Shown here in pieces: positions 9,078-61,753 of a stretch of DNA of 64,000 bases. The stretch is taken from contig CM057135.1 of NCBI GenBank assembly GCA_029964075.1, positions 3,271,001-3,335,000 of the forward strand. The letters are read 5' to 3'. Numbering within the stretch: the stretch's first letter is position 1; each line of letters begins with the position of its first letter. Origin of the DNA: Patiria pectinifera. Its lineage: Eukaryota > Echinodermata > Asteroidea > Valvatida > Asterinidae. The translations under genes and the position numbers were made by a program. The notes beneath the pieces are model-generated. The model was given only the letters and a program-made list of their open reading frames with translations. It made no database searches and was not told the origin of the DNA.

Positions 9078-9577
9078 NNNNNNNNNNNNNNNNNNNNNNN
9101 NNNNNNNNNNNNNNNNNNNNNNNNNNNNNNNNNNNNNNNNNNNNNNNNNNNNNNNNNNNNNNNNNNNNNNNNNNNNNNNNNNNNNNNNNNNNNNNNNNNN
9201 NNNNNNNNNNNNNNNNNNNNNNNNNNNNNNNNNNNNNNNNNNNNNNNNNNNNNNNNNNNNNNNNNNNNNNNNNNNNNNNNNNNNNNNNNNNNNNNNNNNN
9301 NNNNNNNNNNNNNNNNNNNNNNNNNNNNNNNNNNNNNNNNNNNNNNNNNNNNNNNNNNNNNNNNNNNNNNNNNNNNNNNNNNNNNNNNNNNNNNNNNNNN
9401 NNNNNNNNNNNNNNNNNNNNNNNNNNNNNNNNNNNNNNNNNNNNNNNNNNNNNNNNNNNNNNNNNNNNNNNNNNNNNNNNNNNNNNNNNNNNNNNNNNNN
9501 NNNNNNNNNNNNNNNNNNNNNNNNNNNNNNNNNNNNNNNNNNNNNNNNNNNNNNNNNNNNNNNNNNNNNNNNNNNNN
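9078..9577. other. Assembly gap (500 N)
   Basis: Exactly 500 consecutive N, a conventional placeholder size, so the true distance is unknown. Frames drawn through it are meaningless. The 5' part of the LINE that follows may lie inside. Confidence 0.99.
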
Positions 9578-44333: not shown

Positions 44334-44337
44334 TGAC
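44334..44337. repeat. Left target-site duplication (TGAC) of the RAG1-like transposon
   Basis: The satellite monomer stops after GGCATCTGAC; its last four bases are TGAC. The same four bases start the satellite again at 51080. The base outside on the left is C and the fifth base on the right is G, so the duplication is 4 bp, not 5. Confidence 0.85.
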
Positions 44338-44347
44338 CACCGCTGTT
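44338..44347 (+). repeat. Left terminal inverted repeat, CACCGCTGTT
   Basis: Perfect inverse complement of 51070-51079. The next similar block on this side (CGGTTGTACGCATGCG, 44371-44386) starts 23 bp further in. Confidence 0.92.
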
Positions 44348-44370
44348 GCAAATAGCCTATACGCGACGCA

Positions 44371-44386
44371 CGGTTGTACGCATGCG
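44371..44386 (+). repeat. Left subterminal block, possible transposase-binding site
   Basis: CGGTTGTACGCATGCG matches the right-end block (51040-51055, inverted) at 14 of 16 positions; both differences are A/G. It is 23 bp from the 10-bp repeat here and 14 bp on the right. Conservation at both ends suggests binding by the transposase, but this is inference. Confidence 0.6.
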
Positions 44387-45495
44387 CCGGATTGGTCGCG
44401 AGGTCAACCCAAAATTAATATGCATTAGGTGTGACCCCTGGTTAGTTTAGATGCTGGGACGTTCAAGAAAAACTGGAATTACAATGAATATTCATGACCT
44501 AGGCAAAAATTAACTGACCAATAACAGCTAGGAATACCTTTATATTATAAGTAGCTCATAACTTTTTTTCTCAAGCGCAATAGCCGCGGGAAATTTGGTG
44601 AAAAAAAGTGACCAAGTTTGCCGTGACGTTGCGCGTAATCCGGAAAATGCGGTGATTTTCGTGGCATAATTTTTGGATTAAAGTAAGTTCCCCCGATACA
44701 TTAGACAGTACCATATTAAAGAATGAGCTTTTATCTACCATCTATTAATTTTTGGGATGGGCAAACCCCTTTGAATTTTGGAAAACAGTAGGGATTCCCC
44801 CGTCTTCTCGGCAATAAATTTGGGGAATCACCTATACTTTTTGCGTGTGTACGTGTACGTGTGTACGTTACGTGTGATGATGCGGGCGACGGCGGGGCGC
44901 CAGGCCCGTGTGTGCGGGTAGTAACACGCACAGTACACCGCATGACAGGGGTTTTTTGACTGATCGTTTTGACGTTGTTCATGATCTTATCTATTCTTTA
45001 ATGGACAACAGAACTAAATTTAATACAACACATTACTTCACTTATGTGTTCCTTATTTATTTATTCTTCAGAACTATTTAGTCTTTGTACATGTTGTACA
45101 GAAATGTTACAATTTTATACAGAAATGTTATAATTTTAATCTCGTAATTTCGTAAATTTGAAACAACAAATTACTTCACTTATGTTTTTTGTTATTTATT
45201 CAATTCAGATTTCCTGATTTCCTGGGAAAAAAATCCAAAATAAATCTAATTTGGTTTTGAAAGAAATAAACTATAGGAGGGGCCTACAAAAAAATACCAC
45301 AGGCATTTAGAAATATAAACATGGCATAGTTCAACATGACATAGGCCTTTCTTATTTTTGCCTACATGCCCATTTATAATATGTGGAGAACATTTCATAT
45401 GTGAACAAGAATGAAATATATATAGATATTGTTATTACTATTTTATTTCAACCAAATTACATCATAAAGCTCATACACGAATACAAATTTAGCAA
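44387..45495. other. 5' non-coding region of the transposon
   Basis: About 1.1 kb between the left end and the first coding ATG. It has a GC-rich patch with ACGTGT words near 44840-44915 and becomes AT-rich afterwards. A TATATATAG stretch near 45417-45427, about 70-80 bp before the ATG, could serve as a TATA-like element, but I have no other promoter evidence. The minus-strand frame 44731-44982 has no recognisable domain. Confidence 0.5.
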
Positions 45496-46434
45496 ATGAG
45501 CATTCACTCCCACCCTTTTGTTCAACATGTAGGTCGAGCCAAGGTCAAAATGAGCGACAAGCACGTAAATAACCTCAAAAGGTTATGTAGGGTGTGCGGG
45601 AGCAATGTCCAAAAACACAAACATAAAGCCAAGCCAGTGAAAAGATGTGCCGTCTACAAAGACAAAATTAAAGAAAAGTACCACATCGATATTTCAGCTG
45701 ATGAAGAACACCGCCATCCCCAACACATTTGTCATCTCTGCTATTCATATCTATACTTGGCCAAATCCCATACCCTTCCCAATGACTGGCCTCCCCATCC
45801 AGAGGAAGGCACATGTGTGGTATGCCAGGGGGTTGAAAGCAACAAGGGTGGTCGCCCAGGAGTCAAACAGAAATATGACAGGATGCATCGTCTAGCACAA
45901 AATGAAGAAACTACACAATTGGAGGTGGAGGAGCGGTTCAAGCAAATGATGGGCACAACTACTGAGTTTTTCCGTGATGGCTTCTTTTGTGATGAGCGCC
46001 ACTTCTGCTGTGAAATCTGCAATCAAACAATGAACAGACCTGTTGAGACTCCCTGCCAGCACAGCTTTTGTTTAGAGTGTTTACACACCCTTTTCAGTAA
46101 AGCTTCTGCTTCTACCGTGCTCTGTCCTACTTGCCACATACACATCAGTCTGAAAAAAATCTCCCCAGTGAAGGAATACTTCATAAATATTCTACAGGAC
46201 GCAAAGGTAGTGTGCAAAACTTGCAAAAGAAGCAGCCTGTTGAAAAGCACATCTACACATGATTGCACTGACCCCCAATCCTCACAACAGATTGATGAGG
46301 AAATGTTCCGAAATATTATGTCAAGGAATGTCTCCCCCCTTGGCAAAGTTGGGCAGCAAATGACATCAAAGTTGATAAAAGAAGAGATGAAAAATAGTAG
46401 AACGACAGAAGTACGGCTTTCTACTGGCGGTGAG
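45496..46434 (+). other. Exon 1: RAG1-type N-terminal zinc region and RING finger
   Basis: Codons 1-313. C31-x2-C34, then HPQHICHLC with C79-x2-C82, then a tryptophan-proline-rich WPPHPEEGTC with C107-x2-C110, correspond in order to the zinc-binding region before the RING in vertebrate RAG1. The RING is C172-x2-C175-x11-C187-x-H189-x2-C192-x2-C195-x14-C210-x2-C213. Immediately after it come PVKEYFINIL and a CxxC pair (KVVCKTCKR), matching the RAG1 order RING then zinc finger. A GGRPG motif at 118-122 lies between the two zinc regions. The exon ends at codon 313 with GAG followed by GTAAGG. Confidence 0.88.
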
Positions 46435-49400
46435 GTAAGGTTTGGAAATGAAAACAAAAAAACTATTAGATGTAGATGTACATGTGCAAGAAAAATAAAG
46501 TTGAACGGGGAGTAAAGCTGTTGTTATGGAAAACAAGCCCCCAAAATTTAAGTTAAGAAAATGACATCAAAATTGTTTCAATAAAAACTAGTTTGAAAGT
46601 GACAATCATGTCCTGGGTTTTGTTTCTCAGAATTTCCATTCCTTCCTTAAAGACATTATTTTACATGGTTGTCACCGCTATATTCTGTACTATGTATGCA
46701 AAGCTTTAAAACTAATATCAAGTAACATGTATCATAAATTTATTATTAGGCTCTCCGCATCCAGCAAATTACCCATCCCAAAAAAACAAGTTGTGAAGTA
46801 AGTCAACGGACCTTGCAACGCCGAAACACTCTAGTCAAGAGGCAGCTCTCACATGTAAGTGGTGGGCAGCCAAAGTGTCAGTTGCAGCATCATCTGAAGA
46901 GTACGCCAAGAGGGGAGCTGCAAAGCCTGTTGCGCAACACGCAGCTTAAGTCATTCGTCCCACCCCTGGAGGAACTTGCCCTGAAGTCTGACTTGGGCAT
47001 GTCCTGGGCTGCACTTCGGGAGCTGAAATTGTAAGACAAAGTTTTATGTGACGATGTAAATATTTTTATTTATTTATTAACCAAGTCGCCAATTACAGGA
47101 TGGTAAGAATTAGAAGAAATTACAGTTTTAGAGGTGGGAGGAAAACCCCAGAATATTATTTTGGGGAAAACCCAATCCACATGTGGACCAAGCAGGAATC
47201 GAACCCGGGCCACAGCGGTGGAAGGCGAGGAAAGAACCCCTGCACCAACCTGACTGTCTAATAACGTGCTCAATAAAGATGATGTATAACATGTAAAAAT
47301 TTTACATTCTTGTTTAGGTGGTTACGCAAATATGATGTCGTCATGGCAAATGAGCAAGCCAGCAGGGCCCTTGGCAAATCATGTGTTCAAAAGGAGACAG
47401 TTGAAGGAGAATTGATGCCATTTCTATTTAATGAGAAGGACACCCTTGTCACCAAACCAGCTCCATGTGTGTTCATCACTGACCTGACAAAGTACACCCT
47501 TGACCTCTTGGATGAATATGACAGGTAAATAATGATAAATTAATTAAAATTAATTTGTTAATACACTCGTTCCCTGTATAGTACAATTGTTAAACATAAG
47601 ATGTACTTGTTATGAATATCATCAAGGTGTGACAAACTGAAATGGAGAAACGGACAACCACAGGATCAAATTTGGATTAAGCTTGGTGGTGACAAGGGTG
47701 GTGGCTCTTTCAAGTTGATGCTCCAAGTTGCAAATGTCGACAATCCAAACTCCAGGCGCAACACCAGCGTAATTTGTGTATTTGCAGCAAATGACTCTGC
47801 TGCAAATTTGCACATCGGAATTAACCGCTACAAGACACAGGTGGAAACTCTGTCTACAACTACATGGAGGTAATACAAGAAAACGTATTTCAAAACATGC
47901 TTCTTGATTTTCTATTATTTTTATTATTAGTGTTTATGTTTTTAACTTTTTATTCGTATCAACTTGAACATAGGGCCAATATCATTGTGAATGAATTAAT
48001 CCTTCTTTTATGATTACTCTTTAGGGAAAAGAAGATTGTCCTCTTTATGTTTGGAGATTACGAATTCCTCTGCAGGATGTATGGCCTCTCTGGACCAAGT
48101 GGTATGTTTCATCTTGGGTACTAAACATATGTATGCTTTGTTTTAGTGGCTCACATTTCATCTGAAGATCAGGTTTAATTGTAGCTTGGTTATTTTAAAC
48201 AAGTTCTGTATAATATTTTGGCAGGTCGCCATTCATGTCTTTGGTGCACCATCAACAATAAAGACATGATATTGCCAAAGGTACAGCGTCCTCCTTGTGA
48301 CACCAGGACGACTGAGACACTCAACCATGACCACCAACAGTTTCTTGCAGCTGGAGGAGTGCTGACCAAAGCCAAAACCTTCAATAATGTAATTAACAGG
48401 GCATTCTTCGAAATACCAATTGATTGCGTAAGTCATCTCTAATCTTTGCAATCATTTATAAGCAAATATAACATTAATAATGATTAACACTTGTTAATGT
48501 ATTTAAAATAAATTAATATATTACCATTCTCTGGTTTCTTCTCAGGTTTGTCCTCTTCCCCTCCACATCAGTCTTGGACTGTGGTTCAAGTTTTACACCT
48601 TGATGGAAGAGGAGTGCAAACATCTTGGTGAGGAAATTGCAGCATCCCTTGCCATTTCTCCACAGGGTGCCAGTGGTATTGCAAATGGTCCCTTCCCTGT
48701 TTATGTTGCGAAGCTTGCCGAGGTGCATTTGGCTGAAGAGCGTGTCAAAGAAATAACAAGTGAAATGAAAGAACTGCAGGAACAACTGGCACTTGTGGCA
48801 CTTCTCAATGACAACATCAACGTTGAGGATGTGGTTTCCAGTGTCACTTCAGATATAAATGCACTGGGAAAACAACTCGAACAGCAGGTTGGTGAATTTA
48901 TTTTTCAATTGTAAAATACACCAGGTAAAAAAGTGTTGCATATCTTTCAAAATTATTTATATGAAAAGAAATGAAATCAACATCCTCCTCCTGAAATTTA
49001 CCTTTAACAGGAGGCAATTTGAAGCACTGCAGTAGAGAAGCTCCCCGACCATCACAACCCACTGCTGCAAAACCTAGACAAGTGCCTCCAGGACATCAAA
49101 GTGCGACGACAAGCCTATTACAGCAATACCTTTATAGGGAATCATGTACAGTGTTTGAAAGTGAGTAATGTATGTACTTTATAAACATCTTTAACATTAC
49201 AGGAATTTTACACATAAGCAAAAATCGAGTTGTAAACATTACATGATTATGCAGAAAGTTAACTTTATAGTTTCACATTTTCGTTACATTTTGTTTCACT
49301 TGCATGTATGCAGGAGATAAATATCAACAAAGTCACAGACAGCATTGTGGAAGAGACATCACGCCTTGCCCCAGAAAAAGTGGAAAATGCAAAAAGCATC

Positions 49401-50099
49401 TGCAAAAAATACTCAATGCTTTTTACACTTTTTGCCAAGTGCCACAATGTCTACAACACAGCAGATTCCCTCAATGACACAGAAATTGCAAAACTTGGTG
49501 AGTGATGTAGGATTTTAGGCTTGCCTTGTGGAATATGATTATAAATTTTATCTTCGAAGATCGAAGATTTGCTGGTTATGCTCAGCAGTTTGACCGAATC
49601 ATTATTGGGAAACTGTGATATCAACTTATTTGTTTATTTTTAAAATTTCAAATTTAACAACAAACACAAAATCTAACAATGTAACGATCTTGATATAAAA
49701 ACACTTACCTGGTCATGTGTGTTCGATCGATTGATAACAAAAAATGTCACAATTTTTCTGCTAGATGACGACATCACTCGTTTCATGCACTTTTACCGGA
49801 CCAACTTTCCCGGTAAAACCTTCCCTCCAAAGATGCACATCCTTGAAGTCCATGTTCTGCCATTTGTCCAACGAACACGGCATGGACTAGGACTCCTGGG
49901 GGAACAGGGCGGCGAGAGCATGCATGCAGTGTTCAACACCCTGAACAGGCGCTTTGATGGAGCCCGGAACACCAGCAAGCAAGACCCTGACCTCTTCAAA
50001 CTGATGTGCGTGATGCAAGAACATCTGCTCACTGTCAACCCCTCCATATCAAGCGCATGTCCTCAGCGAAAGCACCGCAAACGGAAAACTGAATCATAA
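45496..50099 (+). CDS. RAG1L: RAG1-like transposase, 10 exons, one in-frame stop
   Basis: Predicted exons: 45496-46434, 46750-47030, 47318-47524, 47627-47869, 48025-48101, 48225-48427, 48546-48887, 49011-49160, 49314-49497 and 49765-50099. All introns are GT-AG and every phase agrees, giving 987 codons (RAG1 is about 1,040 residues). Residues 31-110 hold zinc-ligand pairs and 172-213 a C3HC4 RING. The core has D498, D568, C587-x2-C590, H900-x4-H905 and E926, the order of D600, D708, C727/C730, H937/H942 and E962 in mouse RAG1. It should bind the element's ends and cut and join DNA in the nucleus. The N-terminal half could be an E3 ubiquitin ligase, as in RAG1. Codon 768 is TGA. Start: M1 at 45496; M19 (45550, preceded by AAA) is an alternative. 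The family assignment rests on motifs seen by eye. Confidence 0.88.
46435..46749 (+). other. Intron 1 with stop codon and AATAAA (possible short isoform)
   Basis: Donor GTAAGG at 46435 and acceptor TTATTATTAG ending 46749 join codons in phase 0. If the intron is retained, 26 more residues follow and translation ends at TAA 46513-46515. An AATAAA at 46580-46585 follows 65 bp later. That arrangement would allow a polyadenylated short transcript encoding only the zinc/RING half (339 residues). The short form is inference. Confidence 0.55.
46750..47524 (+). other. Exons 2-3: linker and presumed DNA-binding region of the transposase
   Basis: Codons 314-476. Exon 2 starts ALRIQQITHP and is rich in Arg, Lys and Gln; it ends in RELKL, and exon 3 continues WLRKYDVVMANEQ across a split Leu codon. 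In RAG1 the corresponding part carries the nonamer-binding and dimerisation/DNA-binding domain. I see no sequence motif that proves DNA binding here, so this is by position only. Confidence 0.6.
47046..47262 (-). mobile_element. tRNA-derived SINE in intron 2 of the transposase
   Basis: On the minus strand, a box-A-like TTGGTGCAGGGG (complement near 47238-47249) is followed by a good box B, GGTTCGATTCC (complement 47195-47205). A unique body with GGGTTTTCC words comes next, and the element ends in an A/T-rich (AAAT)n tail toward 47046. Intron 2 (47031-47317) is nearly all SINE, yet its donor GTAAGA and acceptor TTTAG remain intact. Target-site duplication not certain. Confidence 0.75.
47627..47869 (+). 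other. Exon 4: first catalytic aspartate (D498)
   Basis: Codons 477-556 plus split codons. The exon carries KLGGDKGGGSFKLML, with D498 encoded at 47691-47693 and followed by a predicted beta strand, as expected for the first Asp of an RNase-H-like DDE fold. NTSVICVFAANDSAANL follows. By order this is the equivalent of RAG1 D600. Confidence 0.7.
48025..48427 (+). other. Exons 5-6: second aspartate (D568) and C-x2-C zinc ligands
   Basis: VLFMFGDYEFL is a hydrophobic strand ending in D568 (48056-48058). Nineteen residues later is C587 (48236-48238) in HSCLWC, paired with C590 (48245-48247). The intron between 48101 and 48225 splits a Gly codon just before HSCLWC. In RAG1 the distance from D708 to C727 is also 19, with C730 next. 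Confidence 0.85.
48546..48887 (+). other. Exon 7: insertion domain of the transposase
   Basis: Codons 651-764. It begins VCPLPLHISLGLWFKFY and continues as a Glu/Lys/Leu-rich stretch (for example RVKEITSEMKELQEQLALV) that looks helical, possibly coiled-coil. In RAG1 and related transposases an all-helical insertion separates the second Asp from the last Glu; here the D568-to-E926 distance (358) exceeds that of RAG1 (254). The donor is CAG followed by GTTGGT. Confidence 0.6.
49020..49022 (+). other. In-frame TGA in exon 8 (probable inactivating mutation)
   Basis: With the canonical acceptor CCTTTAACAG (ending 49010), exon 8 reads Glu-Ala-Ile-stop and then stays open for 46 codons to the donor GTGAGT at 49161, in phase with exons 9 and 10. 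A single base change could explain it. An in-phase alternative acceptor (GTAGAG ending 49037) would skip it but has a poor pyrimidine tract. Confidence 0.7.
49765..50099 (+). other. Exon 10: H-x4-H and catalytic glutamate (E926), C-terminus
   Basis: Codons 877-986 and stop TAA (50097-50099). MHILEVHVLPFV contains H900 (49836-49838) and H905 (49851-49853). GLLGEQGGES follows, with E926 at 49914-49916; E922 is a less likely candidate. RAG1 has H937-x4-H942 and then E962 in a similar Ser-Glu-Gly-Asn-Glu-Ser setting. The protein ends in a basic tail (RKHRKRKTES), possibly a nuclear localisation signal. Confidence 0.85.
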
Positions 50100-51039
50100 T
50101 TCATAAAGTATGTAGAATTTAGAAGATGAAATTTTTTTTTTAATCATTTTTTTTTAAGATTAAGAATCAGTGTGATCAGTGAAATTTATAAACATGAAAA
50201 TAGCCAACAGCCACTCATAAACATCACAAGGAATATCTTGCTTCATTCTTTCTTATTTTATTTGGGGGGGGGGGGTGGTAGGCCTAGCATGTCTAGGCCT
50301 ATTGCTTGTTGAATATTGTTAGGCCTAGATTTATTGCTCCCATTAATTTCAATAATCACAAACATAATATTGTATTTACTAAAATAGCATTGGCATCAAA
50401 ATAGAATATGTCATCATGGTCAACCATGTGGTTCTTAAAACAGTGGAAAATCCGGACCTAACGTCTTCCTTCCTCCATGAACAGACCCACACCATGCGGG
50501 CGGAACAAAGCAGTATCACACACTGCACTGCATGACGGTCAAGTCATGTGTTTGTATTGAAACGTGTACAAAACAGACGCAGAGTAATTTTTCATCGGCA
50601 GTGAAGACGTGCATTAAAAAAAGAAAATCCAAGCTACGTAGGGGGTTTGCCCACTCACCTTTCATGTTAATCTGTCTCCATGGGTTTCTCATCATATTGA
50701 CACTTCATTTTGTCATGGATTAACTCACTAACTGAGGTCTTTTGGACCCAGAACTATCCCTAAATTCAGCATAGCCGATGAGCCACACGACGTGAAACAC
50801 ACGTGCATACACGAACTGCTTGGAGCCATTTTATCCTCGAAACGAACACGTACACCATTGAAACTGGTGTCCGCTGGTTGTAAGGTGTATAATATATTTA
50901 TATATGTGTAAGATTTATTTAAATATTCATTAGTTTATTTATAACAACCGTTTTTATTGGCCGAATCAATATTGTTTATGCAGCATTGCCCCTGGCCTCA
51001 TTTGGGCAGCAGAGGGCGTGCTCCATGCGCTAGAATACA
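50100..51039. other. 3' non-coding region of the transposon
   Basis: About 0.94 kb with A/T runs, a run of G near 50260-50275 and no second gene. The frame at 50532-50723 has no recognisable content. CGGTTGT, the core of the subterminal block, appears once more inverted at about 50945-50951. No clear AATAAA follows the stop closely. Confidence 0.6.
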
Positions 51040-51055
51040 CGCACGCGCACAACCG
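51040..51055 (-). repeat. Right subterminal block, possible transposase-binding site
   Basis: CGCACGCGCACAACCG is the inverse complement of the left block with two A/G differences. It lies 14 bp from the right 10-bp repeat, against 23 bp on the left. Confidence 0.6.
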
Positions 51056-51069
51056 TTTGTCGTGGCATT

Positions 51070-51079
51070 AACAGCGGTG
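51070..51079 (-). repeat. Right terminal inverted repeat, AACAGCGGTG
   Basis: Exact inverse complement of 44338-44347. It is followed directly by TGAC and the remainder of the interrupted satellite monomer. Confidence 0.92.
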
Positions 51080-51083
51080 TGAC
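51080..51083. repeat. Right target-site duplication (TGAC)
   Basis: Matches 44334-44337. Removing the element and one TGAC restores a normal monomer junction (GCATCTGACG then AGTCCGTC-like sequence with one G-to-C difference). Confidence 0.85.
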
Positions 51084-51531
51084 GCAGTCCGTCTGCGCAT
51101 AAGTGGATGATGAGGATTACTCGCCCTGACTGTGGAGCATCGTTGTCACATTCACAGCTGAATGTGCCATCTCACAGAATCCGTCTGCCCATCAGTGGAT
51201 GAGAAGGATTACTCACCTTGACTGTGGAACATCGTTGTCACATTCACAGCTGAATGTGCCATCTCACAGAATCCGTCTGCCCATCAGTGGATGATGAGGA
51301 TTACTCACCTTGACTGTGGAACATGTTGTCACATTCACAGCTGAATGTGGCTTCTCACGGAGTCCGTCTGCTCATCAGTGGATGATGAGGATTACTCACC
51401 TTGACTGTGGAACATGTTGTCACATTCACAGCTGAATGTGCCATCTCATGGAGTACGTCTGCCCATCAGTGGATGATGAGGATTACTCACCGTGACTGTG
51501 GAACATGTTGTCACATTCACAGCTGCGTTTG
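51080..51531 (+). repeat. Continuation of the 91/92-bp satellite right of the transposon
   Basis: About five monomers of the same variants as on the left, in the same orientation and phase. They show that the transposon landed inside the array near its right edge. Confidence 0.95.
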
Positions 51532-57239: not shown

Positions 57240-57900
57240 TTACTGCACCTTTAATATAAACTACATGGAATGTGATGACGTCATCATAATGTAATTCCAT
57301 TTTTCCATCTATAATTAACGCACATATTAGCTACATATCAAATTCAGACGAAATCGGACCTCATAATGACCTTAGAAAGGTGCCAAGGTGGAGTGTTTTA
57401 AAATGTGTACAAAACATATGGGGAAAATGCATCTTTAAAGTGACGTAACCCGACACCTGATGATGTCACGGTCACGAATTTCTTCTAGGACCATCTGTGG
57501 GTGGTGGTCTAAGTATATACAAAGTCTGACGTCGATCGGATTTACGAAGAGGCCAAAGTGGAGTGTTTTAAAATGTGTACAAAACATATGGGCAAAAATG
57601 CATTTGCCCGACACCTGATGACGTCACGGTCATGAATTTCTTCTAGGACCATTTGTGGGTGGTGGTCTAAGTATGTACCAAGTCTGAGGTCAATCGGATT
57701 TACGAAGAGGCCAAAGTGGAGTGTTTTAAAATGTGTACAAAACATATGGGCAAAAATGAATTTTTAAAGTGACGTAACCCGACACCTGATGACGTCACGG
57801 TCATGAATTTCTTCTAGGACCATCTATGGATGGTGGTCTAAGCATGTACCAAGTCTGAAATCGATCGGATTTAAAAAAGTGGCAAAGTGGACTGGTGGAA
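57240..57900 (+). repeat. Tandem family of about 170 bp with TGACGTCA octamers (block 1)
   Basis: Units share TGGAGTGTTTTAAAATGTGT (starting near 57390, 57560 and 57718), then CATATGGG, GACGTAACCCGACACCTGATG, an octamer TGACGTCA or a variant, GAATTTCTTCTAGGACCAT and GTGGTCTAAGTATGTACC. One unit lacks about 12-17 bp. Perfect TGACGTCA octamers lie at 57276-57283 (inside the 12-bp palindrome GATGACGTCATC), 57619-57626 and 57790-57797. Confidence 0.75.
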
Positions 57901-58108: not shown

Positions 58109-58882
58109 GTGTGAAGTCGATTTATGTCAGACGTCCTAAATCCACGTGGTTCAATGTGTGCGCAGTCCTCTTTTCTTTGCGTTTGGGAACGGGTGCGCGT
58201 GCAAAGCGTACATGTACCTGTGCGCAGATGATGATAGCGGGTCGAGGATAGATTTAGGAAAGTGTGAAAGTGTACCTGTATTTAGCAACTTATTTCTGGT
58301 GTCTATATTTGAAGTAGGAAAAACGAAATGTGTTCAACTATGTTGGGAGTAAAAATACCAATAGTACTGAGCAGACGAAAAGGGAATTAAATTTAATGAC
58401 GTCTTGGAAAGAATTCCATATACGCACTCCAGTTATTTTCCTAGACATGAATTGAAAAGTACCAAAAGTTGTAAATCTGACGAAGAAACGGAAATTTAGG
58501 AGGGGAAAAAATCAAGATTTTCTTTAAAAATACTTTGACGTTTCCTGTCATGGCCCATAGAGGTGGAGGCTTATATGGAATTCTTTCCAGTGTTCCTAAC
58601 GTGGCGCACTTGAACAAATCCCCCAAAATCCCACATTAACATTTAAGAAATTCTTTAAAGTTGTTAACTTCTGATAAATCATTATTATTCCAACTCACAT
58701 ACCCAACTACAAGTTTGTCACATTTACGTAAGCCGCATAAATCTGTGGCATGATGACTGTACCGCGTAGAGTGCGCGGGGACCTGGCCAGCTGTAGGGCG
58801 GCAAGGCATGCACGCGCACGCTGTTAAAATGTCAAGTTGGATAACGGTCGAGTTGTCCGACCCCGGCCCCATGGGTACAAAG

Positions 58883-59085
58883 CCTATGGAGAAAACAACG
58901 TGCACAATGCCTATGGAGAAAAGAACGTGTACAAACCCTATGGAGAAAAGAACGTGTACAAACCCTATGGAGAAAAGAACGTGTACAAACCCTATGGAGA
59001 AAAGAACGTGTACAAAACCTATGGAGAAAAGAACGTGTACAAACCCTATGGAGAAAAGAATGTGTACAAACCCTATGGACAAAAA
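58883..59085 (+). repeat. 27-bp minisatellite, eight units
   Basis: CCTATGGAGAAAAGAACGTG plus TACAAAC repeats every 27 bp, starting at 58883, 58910, 58937, 58964, 58991, 59018, 59045 and 59072. Because 27 is a multiple of three and the unit lacks stops in several frames, it creates long open frames on both strands (for example 58636-59115 on the minus strand). I treat these as artefacts. Confidence 0.92.
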
Positions 59086-59650: not shown

Positions 59651-60360
59651 CTTGTACTTCCGAAGTTCAGTTTGAAGAAAAACGTGTACAAAACCAATAG
59701 GGAAACCAATGCATCTTTAATGTGATATAACCTGACACCTCATGACGCCACGATGACGAATTTCTTCTAGAACCATCTATGGGTAGTGGTCTAAGTGTGT
59801 ACCAAGCATAAAGTCGATCAAATTTACGAAAGTGCCAAAGTGTATAGTTTGAAGAAACACGTGTACAAAACCTATGGGTAAAATGTGCATCTTTAATGTA
59901 AAGTAATATGACACCTGATGACGTCACGATCACGAGTTTCTTCATGGACCATCTGTGGGTGATGGTCTAAATGTGTACCAAGTGTAACGTCGATCTGGTT
60001 TACGAAAGTGCCGAAATGGAGTGTTTTAATACATGTACAAACCCTATGTGGAAAAATGCATCTTTAATGTGACGTAACCTGACTCGCGATGACGTCACGA
60101 TCACGAATTTCGTCTAGGACCATCTGTGGGTGGTGGTCTAAGTACGAATTAAGTTTAACGTCGATCGGATTTACGAAGATGCCAAACTGGAGTGTTTTAA
60201 AACGTGTACAAAACATATGGGCAAAAAAAGCATCTTTAATGTCACGTGACCGGACACCTGATGACGTCACGATCACAAATTTCTTCTAGGACCATCTGTG
60301 GGTGGCGGTCTAAGTATGTACCAAGTCTGAAATCAATCGGATTTAAAAAAGTGCCAAAGT
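59650..60360 (+). repeat. Tandem family of about 170-178 bp with TGACGTCA octamers (block 2)
   Basis: Four units related to those at 57240-57900, each with a CGTGTACAAAACC-like start, CATCTTTAATGTGACGTAAC, the octamer region, and the GTGGTCTAAG...ACCAAG segment. TGACGTCA occurs at 59919-59926, 60090-60097 and 60262-60269; the first unit has TGACGCCA. Confidence 0.75.
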
Positions 60361-60692
60361 GGACTGGTAGAATAAACGTGTGTTAAACCTATGGAAAAAA
60401 AGGCTGAAAAAGGAGGAAAAAAAGAAAAAACTAGACGGACGTTGTGTTTGTAGGTAAACAAACACCGAGCTGTTTCGGTGTTTTTTCTGTCTTAGAAAGA
60501 AACAGATTGACGTGGCCACCGGCGGCTATCGAACCCAGAACCTTTGTGTGGGGATTCCAAGTTTGTGCTGTGTGTGCCAAGTGTATGAAGTCGATATATG
60601 TCAGACGTCCTAAATCCACGTGGTTCAATGTGTGCGCTGTCCTCTTTTCTTTGCATTTGGGAATGGGTGCGCGTGCAAAGCGTACATGTAGG

Positions 60693-61604: not shown

Positions 61605-61753
61605 AATATGGAGAAAACAACGTGCACAATGCCTATGGAGAAAAGAACGTGTACAAACCCTATGGAGAAAAGAACGTGTACAAAACCTATGGAGAAAAGA
61701 ACGTGTACAACCCCTATGGAGAAAAGAACGTGTACAAACCCTATGGACAAAAA
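61605..61753 (+). repeat. 27-bp minisatellite, six units (copy 2)
   Basis: Same unit as at 58883-59085, with starts near 61605 (degenerate), 61632, 61659, 61686, 61713 and 61740. It generates the frames 61474-61908 (+) and 61545-61862 (-), which are artefacts. Confidence 0.9.

Follow-up and report, generated by a model that had tools for sequence, protein, structure and literature searches.

The window analysed here, a stretch of 64,000 nucleotides from Patiria pectinifera (contig CM057135.1, positions 3,271,001 to 3,335,000), carries a transposon of 6,742 bp at 44338-51079, which is delimited by its ends and by the flanking duplication. The element begins with CACCGCTGTT at 44338 and finishes with AACAGCGGTG at 51079. 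Its terminal inverted repeats (left, 44338..44347, plus strand; right, 51070..51079, minus strand) match at 10 of 10 positions, and the termini have the form 5'-CAC..GTG-3'. The target site duplication TGAC is present on the left (44334..44337) and on the right (51080..51083). The transposon is located in a satellite with a 92-bp unit, close to the right edge of the array. This satellite extends over about 34 kb at 10398-44337 (369.7 copies, 90% matches; TRF) and resumes at 51082-51525 with a further 4.9 copies. The spacing of the satellite units, measured at 329 exact anchor sites, was 92 in 237 cases and 91 in 53. When both flanks were joined with one TGAC, the resulting 88-base junction was identical in 84 of the 88 bases to each of the four best array positions, all of which have a single TGAC at the junction. 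The satellite units of the window thus supply a paralogous empty site, by which the insertion is demonstrated, and both the perfect 10-bp inverted ends and the 4-bp duplication reported in the first-pass annotation were confirmed. The window contains no second copy of the element: blastn of the window against itself produced only 18 matches of 14-23 bases, and the corresponding tblastn self-comparison generated no match.

Elsewhere in the window, an assembly gap (a run of 500 N) is located at 9078-9577, and minisatellites with units of 27, 158 and 171 bp were found at 57382-57873, 58875-59084, 59679-60401 and 61607-61752. They have a common GTACAAAnCnTATGG-like motif and, judging from this motif, are perhaps derived from one another. 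An ORF on the plus strand (2290-2673) had no Pfam match at E up to 0.1; its product ends with FRFHGPRLWN, which we take to resemble the C-terminal end of non-LTR retrotransposon proteins. Pfam gave nothing for seven window ORFs apart from those of the element, and the scans of the window with Rfam (gathering score) and for tRNAs were empty.

The transposase gene (45496..50099, plus strand) was modelled manually from GT..AG sites and open frames. Its ten exons (45496-46434, 46750-47030, 47318-47524, 47627-47869, 48025-48101, 48225-48427, 48546-48887, 49011-49160, 49314-49497 and 49765-50099) give 986 codons plus a stop. An in-frame TGA (49020..49022) arises if exon 8 begins at 49011, that is, at the strongest acceptor, which follows a pyrimidine-rich stretch. 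Two of the seven AG sites examined, both weaker acceptors, provide exon-8 starts (49038 and 49041) that keep the frame open. The copy is possibly dead, because the likeliest splicing runs into this stop; we consider it probably, not certainly, disabled in this way unless a weaker acceptor is used. The description of the element as full-length therefore holds for its DNA, whereas an intact frame is uncertain in view of the introns and of the TGA that goes with the strongest acceptor. A search for a second gene covered ten chosen ORFs of the element. Five of them lie on the minus strand (at least 80 aa; two were extended to the full stop-to-stop frame), and five are non-exonic segments of the plus strand. 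No kelch match was obtained from these ORFs and no Pfam family reached its cut-off, which agrees with the earlier statement that a RAG2-like gene is lacking. Intron 2 harbours a tRNA-SINE-like block on the minus strand (about 47055-47260) with an A-box (from 47247) and a B-box (from 47205) that both fit the consensus perfectly, and with a tail of the AATAAATAAATA type; no tRNA was called in this block by ARAGORN.

The element had been proposed to encode a RAG1-length protein with an N-terminal zinc/RING part and a DDE-type core, and all three parts were indeed detected by Pfam in the 986-aa protein. The N-terminal zinc region of the RAG1_imp_bd or Chapa type (45538..45903, plus strand; aa 15-136) has CxxC motifs at residues 31, 79 and 107. 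It matched RAG1_imp_bd (PF12560) with 24.5 bits in the whole protein and 26.1 bits in exon 1 alone at a cut-off of 23.3; the Chapa zinc finger was thus recognized by proxy, through a Pfam family just over its cut-off. The RING finger (46009..46134, plus strand; aa 172-213) was matched by PF13445 (E 3.5e-8, aa 172-211) and PF00097 (E 4.8e-6, aa 172-213). A phmmer search of the PDB matched full-length RAG1 over aa 6-260 with an E value of 1.7e-6. Among the 60 matches listed out of 106, 14 were RAG1 and the remaining 46 were, by name, nearly all RING-type ligases. A RING on its own therefore does not single out RAG1, whereas the zinc region preceding it does. AlphaFold gave no usable fold for exon 1 alone (mean pLDDT 37.9). 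By analogy with RAG1, this N-terminal part is probably regulatory or dimerising and non-catalytic, and its RING might possibly act as a ubiquitin ligase.

The core was assigned to DUF1280, a family equated with Chapaev transposases (excerpt of PMC3985635), over a region encoded by exons 2-4 (46960..47852, plus strand; aa 384-551). The match in the 986-aa protein had an E value of 1.2e-18 and 68 bits at a cut-off of 25. Exon 4 alone was also recognized (E 5.2e-16), and three other exons run singly through Pfam gave nothing above a cut-off. The RAG1 core family (PF12940) was absent from the matches of the element protein at E up to 10. Among PDB chains, too, neither RAG1 nor ProtoRAG RAG1L was matched by the core (aa 314-986) with the E limit at 10. 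The sole match of this search, to a proteasome subunit (E 1.4), is due to chance, as is the one match in NCBIfam, which had 15 bits where the cut-off is 500. As a control we used a mammalian RAG1 core, which retrieves the solved RAG1 chains in the PDB. The control matched ProtoRAG RAG1L at 1.9e-73, Transib at 0.008 and PF12940 with 1076.6 bits; with E values up to 10 allowed, it had no match to DUF1280 or to any other family of Pfam. The Transib chain 6pqn was not matched by the element core at E up to 10. This says little, because Transib is so divergent that even the RAG1 core reaches it only at 0.008. A direct comparison of the element core (aa 381-986) with the RAG1 core by hhalign and BLASTP produced no significant alignment; the top BLASTP segment, with an E value of 0.26, covers the putative catalytic E region of both. 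The core differs from that of RAG1 and is only distantly related to it; the zinc-finger front is shared with RAG1. Searches for relatives in IMG/VR and GTDB genomes gave pattern matches, none of which was confirmed, and tblastn of phages gave zero matches, which is not surprising for a transposon that presumably belongs to an animal genome.

The core is of the DDE type, and the likely catalytic triad consists of D498 (GGDKGGG, 47691..47693), D568 (FGDYEF, 48056..48058) and E926 (GEQGGES, 49914..49916), all on the plus strand, these roles being assigned by motif. The motifs C(2)C (CLWC, aa 587-590, 48236..48247), LH (aa 656-657, 48561..48566) and H(4)H (HILEVH, aa 900-905, 49836..49853) are found on the same strand. 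Precisely these three motifs, together with CAC..GTG ends and a duplication of 3-4 bp, are given as Chapaev hallmarks in an excerpt of PMC4079192, and the element has all of them, with a duplication of 4 bp. The C(2)C motif is also named in PMC12730594, where C(2)C and H(3-4)H are described as common to RAG1 and Transib.

These data make it highly probable that the element is an autonomous-type cut-and-paste DNA transposon of the Chapaev family (CMC group). The assignment rests on the profile, the motifs and the ends, which all agree. The transposase would bind the 10-bp ends together with the ACGGTTGT blocks that face inwards (described below), and would bring the two ends together. Cleavage at CAC/GTG by an RNase H-fold core with D498, D568 and E926 and insertion with a 4-bp stagger would follow. 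The first-pass annotation had considered that the core might group outside both Transib/RAG1 and the CMC group; it falls inside the CMC group. It had also regarded the combination of domains as unusual and a RAG1-only element as informative on how RAG1 was assembled before RAG2 joined. The former view was not upheld. Two Chapaev subgroups with a Chapa zinc finger, a RING and a core were described as early as 2015, and such elements with RAG1-type zinc and RING domains were already used at that time to argue that these domains had been fused to a core before RAG1 arose (excerpt of PMC4411706). Moreover, the core is that of Chapaev (DUF1280) and not the Pfam RAG1 core, and the duplication is 4 bp. 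The lack of RAG2 is therefore expected and the element is no relic of a stage before RAG2. It is a complete, well-preserved member of a group already described.

The element may be of the same kind as N-RAG-TP of Aplysia, which may itself be a Chapaev; we regard this as possible, albeit somewhat doubtful, and it does not compete with the Chapaev assignment but is compatible with it. The description of N-RAG-TP concerned a mobile element that encodes a protein resembling the N-terminal part of RAG1 (via excerpts of PMC8355894 and PMC2996935). The Repbase families Chapaev1_ACa to Chapaev3_ACa are named in the excerpt of PMC4079192, and according to a legend in PMC4411706 ACa stands for Aplysia californica. 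On the other hand, the excerpt of PMC8355894 states that N-RAG-TP consists of RAG1 N-terminal-like sequence throughout.

It is very improbable that the element is instead a RAG-like (RAGL/ProtoRAG-type) or Transib element in which a RAG2-like gene is lacking or was lost. Its RAG1-like zinc and RING region detected by phmmer, its CAC ends and its C(2)C and H(4)H motifs would all suit such an origin. However, the core retrieved no chain of RAG1 or ProtoRAG RAG1L in the same PDB search in which the control RAG1 core found both, PF12940 was not matched, and the ten ORFs scanned were devoid of kelch matches. The 4-bp duplication is also at variance with RAG-like elements, in which it is almost always, not invariably, 5 bp (excerpt of PMC7204232). 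Still less credible is a gene that derives from Chapaev and was domesticated to serve the host: the single long gene with introns would fit, but the intact ends, the perfect duplication, the location in a satellite array and the in-frame stop under the likeliest splicing indicate a rather recent and unselected insertion.

Within the Chapaev element, the 10-bp repeats are followed inwards by a block, ACGGTTGTnCGCnTGCG, that is common to both ends and identical in 15 of 17 positions. The left copy (ACGGTTGTACGCATGCG, 44370..44386, plus strand), a probable transposase-binding site, starts 33 bp from the left end, and the right copy (ACGGTTGTGCGCGTGCG, 51040..51056, minus strand) starts 24 bp from the right end, both reading inwards. 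The spacers of 22 and 13 bp thus differ by 9 bp. Dinucleotide shuffles scored as well in 5 of 2,000 cases when the next 50 bases were considered and in 18 of 2,000 for 140 bases, the block having been noticed before testing. The motif ACGGTTGT occurs five times in the window, three times in the element, where all occurrences read inwards within 130 bp of an end. The third copy in the element (50944..50951, minus strand), 129 bp from the right end, points away from two-part ends and towards subterminal repeats of the ordinary type found in CACTA elements. The same 9-bp inequality is known from the RAG-like element AanRAGL, with spacers of 4 and 13 (excerpt of PMC9435367), whereas the end spacers of ProtoRAG (27/31) and of the vertebrate signals (12/23) differ by other amounts in the excerpted sources. 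We consider it unlikely, though worth pursuing, that the ends of the element, seen in this one copy, have an unequal, two-part structure as recombination signal sequences do. If other copies showed this structure, it would bear on how unequal recombination signals arose; if it were true in other Chapaev families, the rule of pairing unequal ends would be older than RAG and Transib and common to the group as a whole. In a literature search on Chapaev with subterminal or asymmetric ends, Chapaev was not mentioned among the matches listed.

Among the known systems, N-RAG-TP, known to us second-hand and compared by description, resembles the element in being mobile and in coding for RAG1 N-terminal-like sequence, and a core is not described for it in the excerpts of the sources. 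Transib elements share the single transposase gene, the CAC ends and the C(2)C and H(3-4)H motifs with our element, but they have a 5-bp duplication and, according to the excerpt of PMC7204232, no RAG1-like N-terminal region. ProtoRAG and other RAGL elements are similar to our element in their CAC ends and, should the above reading of its ends hold, in having unequal two-part ends. The RAG1L protein of amphioxus ProtoRAG also has N-terminal zinc motifs and a RING zinc finger region joined to the core (excerpt of PMC7204232), which contradicts the earlier notion that relatives have one part or the other; in the echinoderm TransibSU elements of PMC4411706 the RING is stated to be missing. In contrast to the element, these systems have a RAG1-family core, a duplication that is almost always 5 bp and a RAG2-like partner gene. 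With Chapaev, the domain order Chapa, RING, core (excerpt of PMC4411706) is the same, as are the CAC..GTG ends and the 3-4 bp duplication (excerpt of PMC4079192), and no difference was seen, unequal ends being unmentioned for Chapaev in these excerpts. The transposon of P. pectinifera thus represents a complete member of the Chapaev group with well-defined boundaries, of the kind that has the N-terminal zinc and RING region in common with RAG1.
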